Below are positions 49,631-53,579 of a stretch of DNA of 64,000 bases, piece after piece. The stretch covers positions 1 through 64,000 of the forward strand of contig JAIPDL010000007.1 of NCBI GenBank assembly GCA_021737695.1. The letters are read 5' to 3'. The notes under the pieces were generated by a model, which was not told the origin of the DNA, searched no databases, and was given only the letters and a program-made list of their open reading frames with translations. Each line of letters opens with the position of its first letter. Within the stretch, counting starts at the first letter, position 1. Source of the DNA: Desulfotignum sp. (lineage in GTDB: Bacteria; Desulfobacterota; Desulfobacteria; Desulfobacterales; Desulfobacteraceae). A program made the position numbers and the translations under genes.

Positions 49631-49876
49631 TCAGCTGTTAGTTTCCCGCTGTTGCCATATACTGCTGAAATCCATATCAGAGATTTTCAGCTTCAACCAG
49701 GCAGCCAGACGGCCGGGAACGGATCCGAGTTGTTTACCACTGTCCCACAATTGGCTGAAAAGATTTAACACCAAGCCAAAAACGGCGAAAGAAACGATAG
49801 CGACATGAGCCAAAAACTGGGGATCATCCATGTTTGTATTTTGGTTTGATTGAATGATTGGGGTGGATTTCTCCAT
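49631..49876 (-). CDS. Small single-span membrane protein of unknown function
   Basis: The 81-aa protein has an Asn/Gln-rich N-terminus, one membrane helix (about 22-43, AHVAIVSFAVFGLVLNLFSQL) and an amphipathic C-terminus with a Trp. A strong GAGGAGG site precedes the ATG at 49876, so the gene is probably real; the longer ORF-track start is less likely. I do not recognise a family. It lies 150 bases downstream of the mttB-like gene on the same strand and may or may not belong with it. Confidence 0.6.
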   Translation of the reverse strand: MEKSTPIIQSNQNTNMDDPQFLAHVAIVSFAVFGLVLNLFSQLWDSGKQLGSVPGRLAAWLKLKISDMDFSSIWQQRETNS

Positions 49877-50027
49877 TGGTGCCTCCTCATTTGAAGTTAA
49901 CATCTGTTAACAAGCTCTTTCGCAGACAGCGAAAGAAACGGCATAAGAACTTGCCCACAAGAATATTTCATACAGAAAATATCTCATAATGAAAAACCCC
50001 TGTCAAGGGAAAAATTTTTTTTCGACA

Positions 50028-51206
50028 TCAGGCCAGAAAGACTTTCCCGGTATTCCTGACCGTGTGATTTTCCCGCATGTAATTGGCCTGACTGCCGTTG
50101 CGCATGATCACCGCAACCCCTTCCGGGTCATAGTCGTCCACCTGATATGCCGGGGCCTGGTCCGGTGTGGTTTCACGGCACAGGTCAATATGCCGTTCAA
50201 GCTTGGCGATGGAAAAAGATACCAGCTCTTTTAAAAACCCGAAACTGTGACGCATCTGGTGAAATCCATATTTTTTCATGAGCGCGTATCCATTGACCGC
50301 TTCTTTTTCAGCAATCTCATTGGGGTGGGCCTGGCTGGTAGTGCAGGCAGTCTGGATGGAGGGCAGATTCAATCGCTGGTTCACCTTTTCCATGATGAGG
50401 TTGGCAATGTTAAAGGATATCAACCCTAAGTTGACGGCGTAATTGTCCTTGATGCTGGCAATGGACGGCAGGCCGGCATGCACGACCATAATGCCGGGAT
50501 TGAGCACCTGGGCCAGGGTAATACCGAACAGGGCTTCGGCATGGGTCAACGTGACCAGTCCGGACATGGAATAGGGGGCGGAAAGCCCGGCCATGGGCAT
50601 GGTGGACACATAAATGGGAATGCCTTTGCGCACACAGGACAAAAACGGCGGAATCATGCTGTCAATGATATTCAAGGGACTGTTGATAATGGAAAACTGG
50701 ATGGTGAATCCCCCCCGGGTTTCATGAATCTGCCGGGCCTTTTCAATGCCCGCTTCCGTGACGGCAGCGGCATACACGGGTTTATTGCAGTTTTCAATAA
50801 TGGTTTCCATGACCCTGACTTCCTGCTTGGGGATCAATACCCCTCTGGCCATGAAATCCACCACATCCGCCTGATCCACGATGCGGGCGATCTGGGCGAC
50901 ATTATCAAATGTCGGTTGGATCAATTCCCCGCTGGTGTCGTCATGGACAAAGGGGGCCGTTCCCCCCACACCAAAAGCATTTTCCCTGATCCAGTACTGG
51001 TCCCGTTTGGGCGTATCGGCAAGGGCCTGCTCCACCAGCGGCGACAGCACATGTAGATGTTCGGTGGTCTCATCATAGGCAGCCAAGCCCGTGTCTTCCA
51101 GAATCTGTCTGACTTCGGGAGAGCTGCAACGTATGCCTGTTTCTTCCAGGACCTGCAATGCGTCCTGATGGATTTGGTCCAGATACTCATTGCTCACTAA
51201 ATTCAT
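50028..51206 (-). CDS. MttB-family (trimethylamine methyltransferase-like) protein, non-pyrrolysine
   Basis: The 392-aa TIM-barrel protein belongs to the MttB superfamily, with LEETGIRCSSPEVRQIL near residue 20 and FSIINSPLNIIDS and ITLAQVLNPGIMVVHAG in the barrel. It is shorter than classic MttB (about 490 aa), has no in-frame TAG, and stops at TGA, so it is not the pyrrolysine form. Non-Pyl members demethylate quaternary amines such as glycine betaine or proline betaine towards a corrinoid protein. No corrinoid-protein gene is adjacent. Its ATG directly abuts the MBL stop (TAAATG), so it is the last gene of a three-gene operon. Confidence 0.85.
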   Translation of the reverse strand: MNLVSNEYLDQIHQDALQVLEETGIRCSSPEVRQILEDTGLAAYDETTEHLHVLSPLVEQALADTPKRDQYWIRENAFGVGGTAPFVHDDTSGELIQPTFDNVAQIARIVDQADVVDFMARGVLIPKQEVRVMETIIENCNKPVYAAAVTEAGIEKARQIHETRGGFTIQFSIINSPLNIIDSMIPPFLSCVRKGIPIYVSTMPMAGLSAPYSMSGLVTLTHAEALFGITLAQVLNPGIMVVHAGLPSIASIKDNYAVNLGLISFNIANLIMEKVNQRLNLPSIQTACTTSQAHPNEIAEKEAVNGYALMKKYGFHQMRHSFGFLKELVSFSIAKLERHIDLCRETTPDQAPAYQVDDYDPEGVAVIMRNGSQANYMRENHTVRNTGKVFLA

Positions 51207-52070
51207 TTATCTGCCTCTCTCTTTGAGGGTCAATGTCATCCCGTCCCAGGCGAATACCATGTTTTCAAAGCCTGCCTCAAGGGCACGGTAATCTGTAAAA
51301 CTGCGGTGCCAGTATTCTTCCAGGTGAATGAAGACCACCTTTTCTGCCTGGATCCGCCGGCTCAGGGCCACGGTCTGACCAAAGGTGTACAGGGTAGTCC
51401 TGGAGATGTGGTCTTCCGGGTACACGTATCCGTGTCTCAACCCGGTTTCAAACATTCCCGGCTGGATAAACAGCACATCCGGGCGCTGAACCGCAGGATC
51501 CTGTTCGGGAAACGGCTTGATGTCACACGGGGCATACACCACTTTTGCGCCGTTTTTTTCAAACACATATATATAGGCGACCTGGTCCCCCCGGTCCACC
51601 GGGATGGCTGTCACCTGAATTGCCCCGATAAGCGTCTGCCGGTCAAACGGTTCACAGCACAGAAATCCGGATTTTTCGTAAAATGATACCAGGGAGCCGT
51701 ATGCCGTACTGACTTGCCTGAAACTTTCCAGCAGCTGCCGTGGCATCACCAGACGGACGGTTTTTTCCGGAAATGCCTGCCAGGTCCTGAAATCAATGGT
51801 CATCTGCTCCACCACCCGGAATCCTTCGATATGATCCGGATCCAAGTGGGTGAGCATCAGGTGAGTGATGACACGGATATCCGACCGGTTCAGCTGCCGG
51901 GAAATTTCAGCCGGGGTATCGATCAGAATATTTTCATCATGCAGAAATGCGGCAGGTCCCCCTCTTTCAAACGGTCCCCCCTTCTCCCGCGCTTCTGTGC
52001 AGACACGGCACCGGCACAATGGCTTGGGGATAACTGTGCATCCCCCGGACCCCAGTATTGAAAAATCCAT
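51207..52070 (-). CDS. PhnP-like MBL-fold metallohydrolase with altered metal motif
   Basis: The 287-aa protein resembles PhnP/PqqB-type metallo-beta-lactamases, with an N-terminal GSGGCTVIPKPLCRCRVC zinc-binding Cys cluster and later Asp and His metal ligands. The first metal motif reads THLDPDH instead of THxHxDH, so the second histidine is aspartate; the metal site or reaction may differ. PhnP hydrolyses cyclic phosphodiesters, but the substrate here is unknown. It lies between an asparagine-synthetase-like gene (21 bases) and an mttB-like gene (0 bases). Confidence 0.83.
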   Translation of the reverse strand: MDFSILGSGGCTVIPKPLCRCRVCTEAREKGGPFERGGPAAFLHDENILIDTPAEISRQLNRSDIRVITHLMLTHLDPDHIEGFRVVEQMTIDFRTWQAFPEKTVRLVMPRQLLESFRQVSTAYGSLVSFYEKSGFLCCEPFDRQTLIGAIQVTAIPVDRGDQVAYIYVFEKNGAKVVYAPCDIKPFPEQDPAVQRPDVLFIQPGMFETGLRHGYVYPEDHISRTTLYTFGQTVALSRRIQAEKVVFIHLEEYWHRSFTDYRALEAGFENMVFAWDGMTLTLKERGR

Positions 52071-52091
52071 GATACCCGCCGGGAATTGCCG

Positions 52092-53579
52092 TTATTTGAA
52101 CGGATCCCATCGGACGGTCTGTTTTTCATATGCCGGCGGGAACAGTTTCAGAAACTCATCATAGTAATACAACTCTTTAAAAGAGGCGAATTTAAGCCCG
52201 TATGCAGCCTTGGGACGATGCTCGAACTCTTTGGGATCGATTTTTTTGGCAATGATGTCATCCATCACGTCATCCATGCCTGTTCCCATGGCAAACCGGA
52301 GCTTTTCCCGATCGGCGATCTGTTGCGGAAGCATGTCCCGGAACGCTTCCCGGAGCACATATTTTTCGATCTGTTTTTCCCCGTGAATCTTCCATTTCAT
52401 GGGAATTTTCGCAGCAAATGCCACCACCCGGGAATCCAGAAATGGCGTCTTGTAAACCACACTGTTGGCCATCCAGCTGCGGTCCATCCGCCGCAACGCC
52501 GTGTTATAGGCGATTTCCAGCAGTTTCTGGGCAAGCCGGTCCCGCTGCTCCTCGCTTTTGACCTTGGGGTTCTTCAATACCATGCGGTACCCGCCGAACA
52601 GTTCATCCGCCCCTTCTCCGATCAGCACGACATCACTGTATTCCTTGACTTTCCGGGATACGTAATAATTGGACAGGATCCCGGAGATACAGTCTTCATC
52701 AAAACTTTCCAGATACCAGACGGCTTCGGGAATGATCTGTTCGATATCCTCATCCGTGATTTCGTAAACATAATGTTCCAGTCCCAGAAAGTCGGCCATC
52801 AGTTTCGCATTTTCCAGATCCGGCCCCGGAGCCTGTTTTACCGTGCCGGTAAACAGCTTTAGATCAGGGTTAAACTCTTTGGCAATGGCCGCCACAATCG
52901 AGCTGTCCAGACCACCGCTCAAAGACACTGCATCGGCACCATCCATCCGCCGTTTCACGGCATCGATCATCAATTCCCTGAGAATGGCGGCAGCCTCCAT
53001 CACATCATTCCCCGGCTCCGGCACCTCCGGTTGAAACACGGGATACGATTTCAGCCCTTTTTTGGAACTGTAGATATGTCCCGGCGGCAGTTCCTGGATA
53101 TCGAACTGGACATGATCCTTCAACCCTTTCATTTCACTGCTGAAATGAAACACCTCACCGCTCCACCCGTAGAAAAGCGGTCTGGCACCGATCCCGTCCC
53201 GGGCCAGAATCACCTCATCATTTTTTTCGACAATCGCGCATACAAAACTGCCGTCCATGTGCGAAAAGCAGTCCTGATCATACTTATCGTACAGATCGAT
53301 GAACAGGTCTATATCCCGCTGGCCGCTGTCGGCACGGTCATCCACCAGCTCTCCGTCAAACAGAAAATAGGGGGGTTCGTCAAGGTTTGAACAAATGGTG
53401 CGTTCCGGCGACAGATTAATCTCATTGGCGCCCACCACGCCCCGGCGATCGGGAATCGACCGGACACAGGTATTGTCCGCCCCGCGATGACGCATGTCAT
53501 TGAGTATTTTCCCCAGCATCGGGGCACAATCCGCACTAATTTTCCCATGCTGGGAGACGATTCCGGCGATACAGGCCAT
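52092..53579 (-). CDS. Asparagine-synthetase-like protein with defective glutaminase site
   Basis: The 495-aa protein has the AsnB architecture: N-terminal class II glutaminase-like domain (about 1-190) and C-terminal synthetase domain with the PP-loop LSGGLDSSIV (about 222-231) and GEGADELFGGY. The N-terminus is MACIAG where AsnB has MCGIAG, so the nucleophile Cys2 is Ala and the neighbouring Gly is Cys. The usual NGE is DGE (FDGELVDD). The AGGAGG site fixes the start. Glutamine hydrolysis is probably lost, so it may use ammonia or another amine to amidate an unknown acid. It leads an operon with the MBL and MttB-like genes. Confidence 0.88.
   Translation of the reverse strand: MACIAGIVSQHGKISADCAPMLGKILNDMRHRGADNTCVRSIPDRRGVVGANEINLSPERTICSNLDEPPYFLFDGELVDDRADSGQRDIDLFIDLYDKYDQDCFSHMDGSFVCAIVEKNDEVILARDGIGARPLFYGWSGEVFHFSSEMKGLKDHVQFDIQELPPGHIYSSKKGLKSYPVFQPEVPEPGNDVMEAAAILRELMIDAVKRRMDGADAVSLSGGLDSSIVAAIAKEFNPDLKLFTGTVKQAPGPDLENAKLMADFLGLEHYVYEITDEDIEQIIPEAVWYLESFDEDCISGILSNYYVSRKVKEYSDVVLIGEGADELFGGYRMVLKNPKVKSEEQRDRLAQKLLEIAYNTALRRMDRSWMANSVVYKTPFLDSRVVAFAAKIPMKWKIHGEKQIEKYVLREAFRDMLPQQIADREKLRFAMGTGMDDVMDDIIAKKIDPKEFEHRPKAAYGLKFASFKELYYYDEFLKLFPPAYEKQTVRWDPFK

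Follow-up and report, generated by a model that had tools for sequence, protein, structure and literature searches.

A three-gene unit with atypical members

The DNA analyzed here is a 64,000-nucleotide stretch of a Desulfotignum genome (contig JAIPDL010000007.1 of assembly GCA_021737695.1; hereafter, the window), in which three adjacent genes encode an AsnB-like synthetase, a metallo-beta-lactamase protein of the PhnP/PqqB fold (MBL), and a short MttB-like methyltransferase, sMttB-b (Table 1). This trio is the reduced, compact Desulfotignum form of a larger Desulfobacterota island that, within the open-access literature searched, is undescribed as a whole. The first-pass annotation, made from the sequence alone, had pointed to a tightly packed three-gene unit, and this is confirmed: the intergenic gaps are 21 bases (AsnB/MBL) and 0 bases (MBL/MttB), the start codons are consistent with those of the orthologs from other Desulfotignum, where the unit recurs, and all three genes are under purifying selection (dN/dS 0.07-0.14 against three Desulfotignum orthologs). 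The host is a Desulfotignum-like sulfate reducer with a genome assembly of 158 contigs, about 88% complete; its short MttB is 96% identical to the counterpart in Desulfotignum sp. M55B178.

Table 1. Genes of the trio and an adjacent candidate associate in the window
Feature	Coordinates	Strand	Remarks
AsnB-like synthetase, Cys-less F09 type	52092..53579	-	495 aa, first gene of the trio
PhnP/PqqB-fold metallo-beta-lactamase protein (MBL)	51207..52070	-	287 aa, 21 bases past the AsnB gene
Short MttB-like methyltransferase sMttB-b	50028..51206	-	392 aa, follows the MBL stop codon without a gap
Small hydrophobic open reading frame 3' of sMttB-b	49631..49903	-	90 aa, candidate associate of the trio only

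The Pfam domains of the trio are Asn_synthase with a partial GATase_7, Lactamase_B_2, and MTTB, respectively, and all three proteins score below the NCBIfam equivalog cut-offs (asparagine synthase, PhnP, and trimethylamine methyltransferase). The earlier remark that every member is atypical holds: the synthetase lacks the glutaminase Cys, the MBL has HxDxDH for HxHxDH, and the MttB is short of two C-terminal helices.

The synthetase retains the PP-loop SGGLDSS and the GEGADE motif, with the glutaminase Cys replaced (MACIAGI). The same pattern is found throughout its family, F09, where SGGLDSS and GEGADE are kept and the Cys is lost in 25 of 25 proteins (MA[SC]IAGI and similar), along with other glutaminase residues. 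The VTTIRAS stretch of E. coli AsnB, which mutagenesis reportedly implicated in aspartyl-adenylate formation, corresponds to EDCISGI in the F09 consensus (at least 90% per column) and to PSLVRCA in a second, Cys-bearing AsnB type, F05. The window protein reaches 235 of the 267 bits required by TIGR01536 and 284 of the 499 bits required by PRK09431. Because both the glutaminase Cys and the Thr-Thr-x-Arg motif are absent, ordinary glutamine-dependent asparagine synthesis appears unlikely, and to that extent the prediction that this is no ordinary asparagine synthesis is borne out. An ordinary asparagine operon was rejected on account of the same losses and of three further asparagine synthetase homologs in the genome. 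With a dead glutaminase, the nitrogen source would be free ammonia or an amine. The Cys-less AsnBs from these clusters form a single clade (95/85), and the AsnB relatives include peptide-amide and lactam-forming ligases. The notion that F05 and F09 are simple alternatives was weakened, as the checked genomes with F09 and a short MttB have F05 too.

The MBL retains CxCxxC and carries HxDxDH in 24 of 24 aligned members; its structure model matches a PhnP-family diphosphatase, PhnP, and PqqB. A link to phosphonate C-P lyase was rejected, given that the score against PhnP (TIGR03307) is 34 bits, far under the cut-off of 272, and that no phn genes were seen. Nor were pqq genes seen near the MBL gene.

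The short MttB matches Pfam MTTB (PF06253) with 108.9 bits (gathering cut-off 25), compared to 103 bits against the 525-bit equivalog cut-off of TIGR02369. Its 392-codon frame has no internal TAG, which rules out a pyrrolysine-type MttB. The AlphaFold2 model is a TIM barrel (pLDDT 94.7), to which Foldseek finds MttB/MtgB nearest (7xcl/2qne, TMq 0.8). GGTAP, H320, and G82-T83 are invariant. G82-T83 corresponds to Gly110-Thr111 of MttB, which contact the pyrrolysine-bound water and the corrinoid (PMC9842639), and H320 to Tyr364 of MttB, the position being His as in MtgB. The profile match stops at 438/500 and the protein ends at 392 aa, so that the two C-terminal helices (MttB 453-495) that anchor the dimerization/MttC-docking loop are missing. 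The loop itself is mostly kept, up to the HT-N motif, and the idea that short MttBs are unable to dock a corrinoid protein was accordingly dropped. The tree, which drew a long-branch warning from the tool, separates all short MttBs from 21 full-length MttBs by a 100/100 split.

The first-pass annotation had described a methyltransferase without its corrinoid partner. The trio indeed contains no corrinoid gene; however, MttC-like corrinoid proteins are encoded elsewhere in the same genome. Since other bacteria use corrinoid proteins in trans (PMC12155760), the missing adjacent gene is no evidence of corrinoid independence.

The small open reading frame 3' of sMttB-b had no Pfam or NCBIfam match, and its position is conserved in nine loci of the clustered set (Desulfotignum loci and the window).

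Co-inheritance and the larger island

Nine of the 13 Desulfotignum genomes carry sMttB-b. Eight of these also encode one or both of the two AsnB types, and the ninth (G367) has a short MttB at a contig edge, with no AsnB found; the four genomes lacking sMttB-b have neither AsnB type. Of 297 genomes of the phylum, nine have sMttB-b, and the six that encode the MBL family all belong to these nine (hypergeometric p 9e-11, without correction for relatedness). A search of 85,462 species genomes with two short peptide patterns, which misses more distant relatives, yielded 59 loci; each comes from Desulfobacterota or from a bin whose label says no more than delta-/Proteobacteria or bacterium. A plasmid search for nearer relatives of the short MttB gave only matches of 24-27%.

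If the homologues usually occurred separately, a shared role would be hard to maintain. In the sample, the MBL is never found apart from a short MttB, whereas the Cys-less AsnB stands alone in three genomes (G184, G195, and G240). The proposed shared specialised role is nonetheless upheld in the form of a conserved, co-inherited unit with atypical members. The statement that no described system has these three parts also stands: our open-access literature search found no published description of the combination.

In the relatives, the island comprises 8-10 genes. A MarR regulator usually comes first, followed by sMttB-a, AsnB, a demethylation module, the MBL, sMttB-b, a nitrilase, and finally an importer of OpuC type whose close relatives are OsmF/choline transporters. 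The paralogs sMttB-a and sMttB-b are about 40% identical. Among the 41 loci whose upstream sequence extends for 5 kb or more, AsnB is present in 37; sMttB-a is found in 34/39 loci and, with denominators set by their own flank criteria, the MBL in 29/49 and the nitrilase in 21/47. The MBL is dispensable to the island, being absent from 20/49 loci. Thus, of the suggested candidate new pathway, the conserved and undescribed unit survives, but the trio is not the whole system.

The demethylation module comes in two versions. A SoxB-like FAD oxidoreductase (DAO) is encoded in 21 loci, full MttB plus an MtgC-like corrinoid protein in nine, and both in none (Fisher p 9e-5). The MttB/corrinoid version is mostly accompanied by a pterin methyltransferase and a MetH-activation-like gene; full MttB and MttC are found in 9/41 loci, with the pterin methyltransferase in six of these, and not in the window. 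This mutual exclusivity is the strongest evidence that the island removes N-methyl groups.

A locus from Desulfobacterales, L109:5430-20283, combines sMttB-a, tandem AsnBs of both types, sMttB-b, MttC, full MttB, SoxB/SoxD/SoxA homologs, nitrilase, and ABC genes. The SoxG position is taken by a 216 aa gene, which had no Pfam match. The locus represents a sarcosine-oxidase-type gene set within a sulfate reducer.

Across the phylum, an AsnB of this kind is encoded in 22 of 297 genomes, with an MttB match in 18 of the 22 (p 1e-12, relatedness ignored) and an AsnB-MttB distance of 0.05-5.2 kb in 17. In most AsnB genomes with full-length MttBs, the MttBs come in pairs, together with genes for a pterin methyltransferase and a corrinoid protein and, in many cases, one resembling S-adenosylmethionine (SAM) methyltransferases. 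Given that AsnB-type synthetases thus also flank full-length MttB/corrinoid clusters, AsnB is the regular partner of this type of demethylation. One genome without the short pair (G208) has a MarR-AsnB-DAO-ABC island with a single full-length MttB (L172), which suggests that the short pair performs the job of an MttB.

Several of these AsnB neighborhoods contain additional genes. In a contig of the window's own genome (C154), a canonical-Cys AsnB is followed by fragments of a full-length MttB (L066:635-3404), apparently a decayed cluster. The SAM-methyltransferase-like protein, of 420 aa and with no PDB relative, is encoded next to AsnB and the corrinoid protein in full-length-MttB clusters, at L175:7828-9093 and in the equivalents in L170, L171, L176, and L177, an odd member for a demethylation operon. 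A penicillin-amidase-family gene (L169:12098-14494) and an open reading frame that resembles penicillin amidase by look only (L144:16508-18679) lie 1-9 kb from a canonical AsnB.

Short MttBs also occur in other settings. In Desulfopila, Desulfocapsaceae, and Desulfosediminicola, sMttB-b is found alongside an aspartase-like lyase and an aldo/keto reductase, joined, where the sequence extends, by an aldehyde ferredoxin oxidoreductase and a betaine-aldehyde-dehydrogenase-like enzyme, and in Desulfosediminicola and Desulfocapsaceae by a BCCT-like transporter. At L123:5137-15736, L111, and L113, sMttB-b lies in this lyase context without AsnB, another betaine-linked setting. Distant short MttBs have as neighbors either a sulfatase and a BCCT carrier of the glycine-betaine type or a SoxA/GcvT-like demethylase and a kinase-like protein. 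The carrier/sulfatase loci (L147:9162-15015, L148:4648-10472, and L150) include a small unnamed protein of about 83-97 aa and, in L147 and L148, thioredoxin-reductase-like and glutaredoxin-like genes as well. At L115:13403-17959, L112:16918-21144, and L151:15649-18000, very large proteins that resemble MCGIV-type class II glutamine amidotransferases and have a GlmS-like part adjoin sMttB-a(/b). They measure 1400-1500 aa wherever enough of their length is covered; the protein of L115 had no Pfam match, and MmgE/PrpD is also present at L112 and L115.

A candidate route for methylated amines and its rivals

With moderate confidence, we favor the view that the trio is the compact form of an island through which betaine/choline-class quaternary or N-methylated amines are used. 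Substrate uptake would fall to a carrier of OpuC or BCCT type, present in relatives and not adjacent to the trio in the window. The short MttB (b, usually with its paralog a) would bind the quaternary ammonium compound and transfer a methyl group to a corrinoid protein, either island-encoded or acting in trans, and the leftover N-methyl groups would be taken off by the SoxB-like oxidoreductase or by the full MttB/MttC/pterin methyltransferase module. The AsnB-type synthetase would adenylate with ATP a carboxylate, probably that of the substrate or of the demethylated product, and form an amide with free ammonia or an amine. A carbon-nitrogen hydrolase of the nitrilase family, whose gene lies elsewhere in the genome that contains the window, would later split the amide, and the MBL may, in some versions, hydrolyze an ester, diphosphate, or cyclic intermediate. 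Later cleavage of the amide is suggested by the recurrence of nitrilase-family hydrolases close to these AsnBs (L057 206-2860, L169, and L170). ATP-dependent modification ahead of demethylation has a precedent in MthK, which phosphorylates choline for MthB (PMC12155760). The sequences themselves show the gene content, the exclusivity of the two demethylation modules, the glutaminase loss, and the folds; the substrate, the methyl transfer by the short MttB, the formation and cleavage of the amide, and the MBL step are inferred.

Several observations weigh against this interpretation. No DAO was found in Desulfotignum, no sMttB-a in the window's genome, and neither a quaternary amine transporter nor a corrinoid gene in the flanks of the trio in the window. 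A canonical-Cys AsnB can occupy the same island slot, and the loci are interrelated, which inflates the p-values. Nitrilase orthologs are present in 13/13 Desulfotignum genomes, with or without sMttB-b, so the nitrilase may have a separate role; the idea that it is island-specific was dropped, as its orthologs are core in Desulfotignum and have unrelated neighbors.

Of the dedicated pathway for an unusual amide or methylated compound that had been suggested for the trio, the part that persists is the use of quaternary or N-methyl amines, not an isolated new amide pathway. The finding amounts to more than an isolated operon and fits best as a variant of the corrinoid/oxidative use of quaternary amines. 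A more specific version makes amidation of the substrate or demethylated product by the glutaminase-less AsnB-type ligase an obligatory step and assigns the demethylation to a heteromeric short-MttB enzyme; it is tentative, and we consider it rather doubtful. If true, amidation would be a novel way of activating betaine-like compounds for demethylation and could also explain the handling of tertiary and secondary N-methyl amines without pyrrolysine.

The amide could, alternatively, be unrelated to demethylation: AsnB would store ammonia from betaine or amine breakdown as asparagine or another amide, serving as a nitrogen store or osmolyte, from which the nitrilase would return it. The Cys-less AsnBs would indeed be ammonia-dependent, AsnB accompanies several different demethylation modules, and the nitrilase resembles the glutaminase part of NAD synthetase. 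Plain use of aspartate is, however, disfavored by the replacement of the Thr-Thr-x-Arg motif in F09 (EDCISGI) and its partial alteration in F05 (SLVR), and the genome already holds three other asparagine synthetase homologs; we regard this explanation as unlikely.

Slightly less probable still is a loss of corrinoid chemistry, whereby the short MttBs would catalyze another reaction or merely bind amines, as a sensor, carrier, or lyase, and AsnB and MBL would form a separate modification pathway. This would fit the lack of corrinoid genes in DAO-type islands, the missing helices that anchor the docking loop, and the long branch between short and full MttBs. Against it, the GGTAP, Met203, and His320 positions fit the MttB/MtgB active site, most of the docking loop is kept up to the HT-N motif, one full MttB replaces the pair in L172, and corrinoid proteins are available in trans.

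That the island builds a small molecule, such as an amide osmolyte or secondary metabolite, is very unlikely: peptide-amide and lactam-forming ligases are among the AsnB relatives and a SAM-methyltransferase-like gene joins AsnB in L170, L171, and L175-L177, but the importers, MarR regulators, sarcosine-oxidase-type genes, and methyl transfer from corrinoid to folate belong to catabolism, and neither carrier protein nor export genes were seen.

Significance and relationship to known systems

In marine sediments, where sulfate reducers and methanogens compete for them, methylated amines are among the major compounds that supply nitrogen, carbon, and methane precursors. A widespread island with a short-MttB clade and an amide-ligase partner points to a route absent from current gene inventories, in which every PF06253 match counts as a standard methyltransferase and every AsnB as an asparagine-making enzyme. 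The island offers three testable enzyme families, with Desulfonema magnum and NaphS2 as cultured hosts.

Among individual proteins, the best match of the synthetase in the PDB is E. coli AsnB (1CT9), with which it shares the synthetase domain, the PP-loop, GEGADE, and the late Lys (RxK) motif, but not the glutaminase Cys and other glutaminase residues, the VTTIRAS stretch (EDCISGI instead), or scores above the NCBIfam equivalog cut-offs. The MBL has the fold and the CxCxxC structural motif of PhnP and the PhnP-family diphosphatase (3G1P, 6B9V) and of PqqB (4Z7R), its top fold matches; it differs in having HxDxDH, and the PhnP ligand His of the NHSK stretch is not conserved.

At the level of pathways, the island resembles the MtgBCA glycine betaine:tetrahydrofolate system of Desulfitobacterium hafniense and the MtpB/MtcB/MtyB/MthB systems of E. 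limosum in its MttB-superfamily proteins without pyrrolysine, its quaternary amine importers, and, in a subset of islands, the MtgC-like corrinoid protein and pterin methyltransferase; with MthB/MthK of E. limosum, it would share an ATP-dependent substrate modification that comes first (PMC12155760). Unlike these systems, the island has a short MttB clade that lacks the C-terminal helices, usually as two paralogs, partnered with an AsnB-type synthetase, nitrilase, and MBL, and a SoxB-like oxidoreductase can substitute for the corrinoid module. The latter feature links the island to the sarcosine oxidase SoxBDAG/dimethylglycine dehydrogenase route, through the SoxB-like DAO in 21 islands and the SoxB, SoxD, and SoxA homologs in L109; in contrast to that route, the island DAO departs from SoxB over its C-terminal half, stands alone, and is coupled to short MttBs and AsnB.

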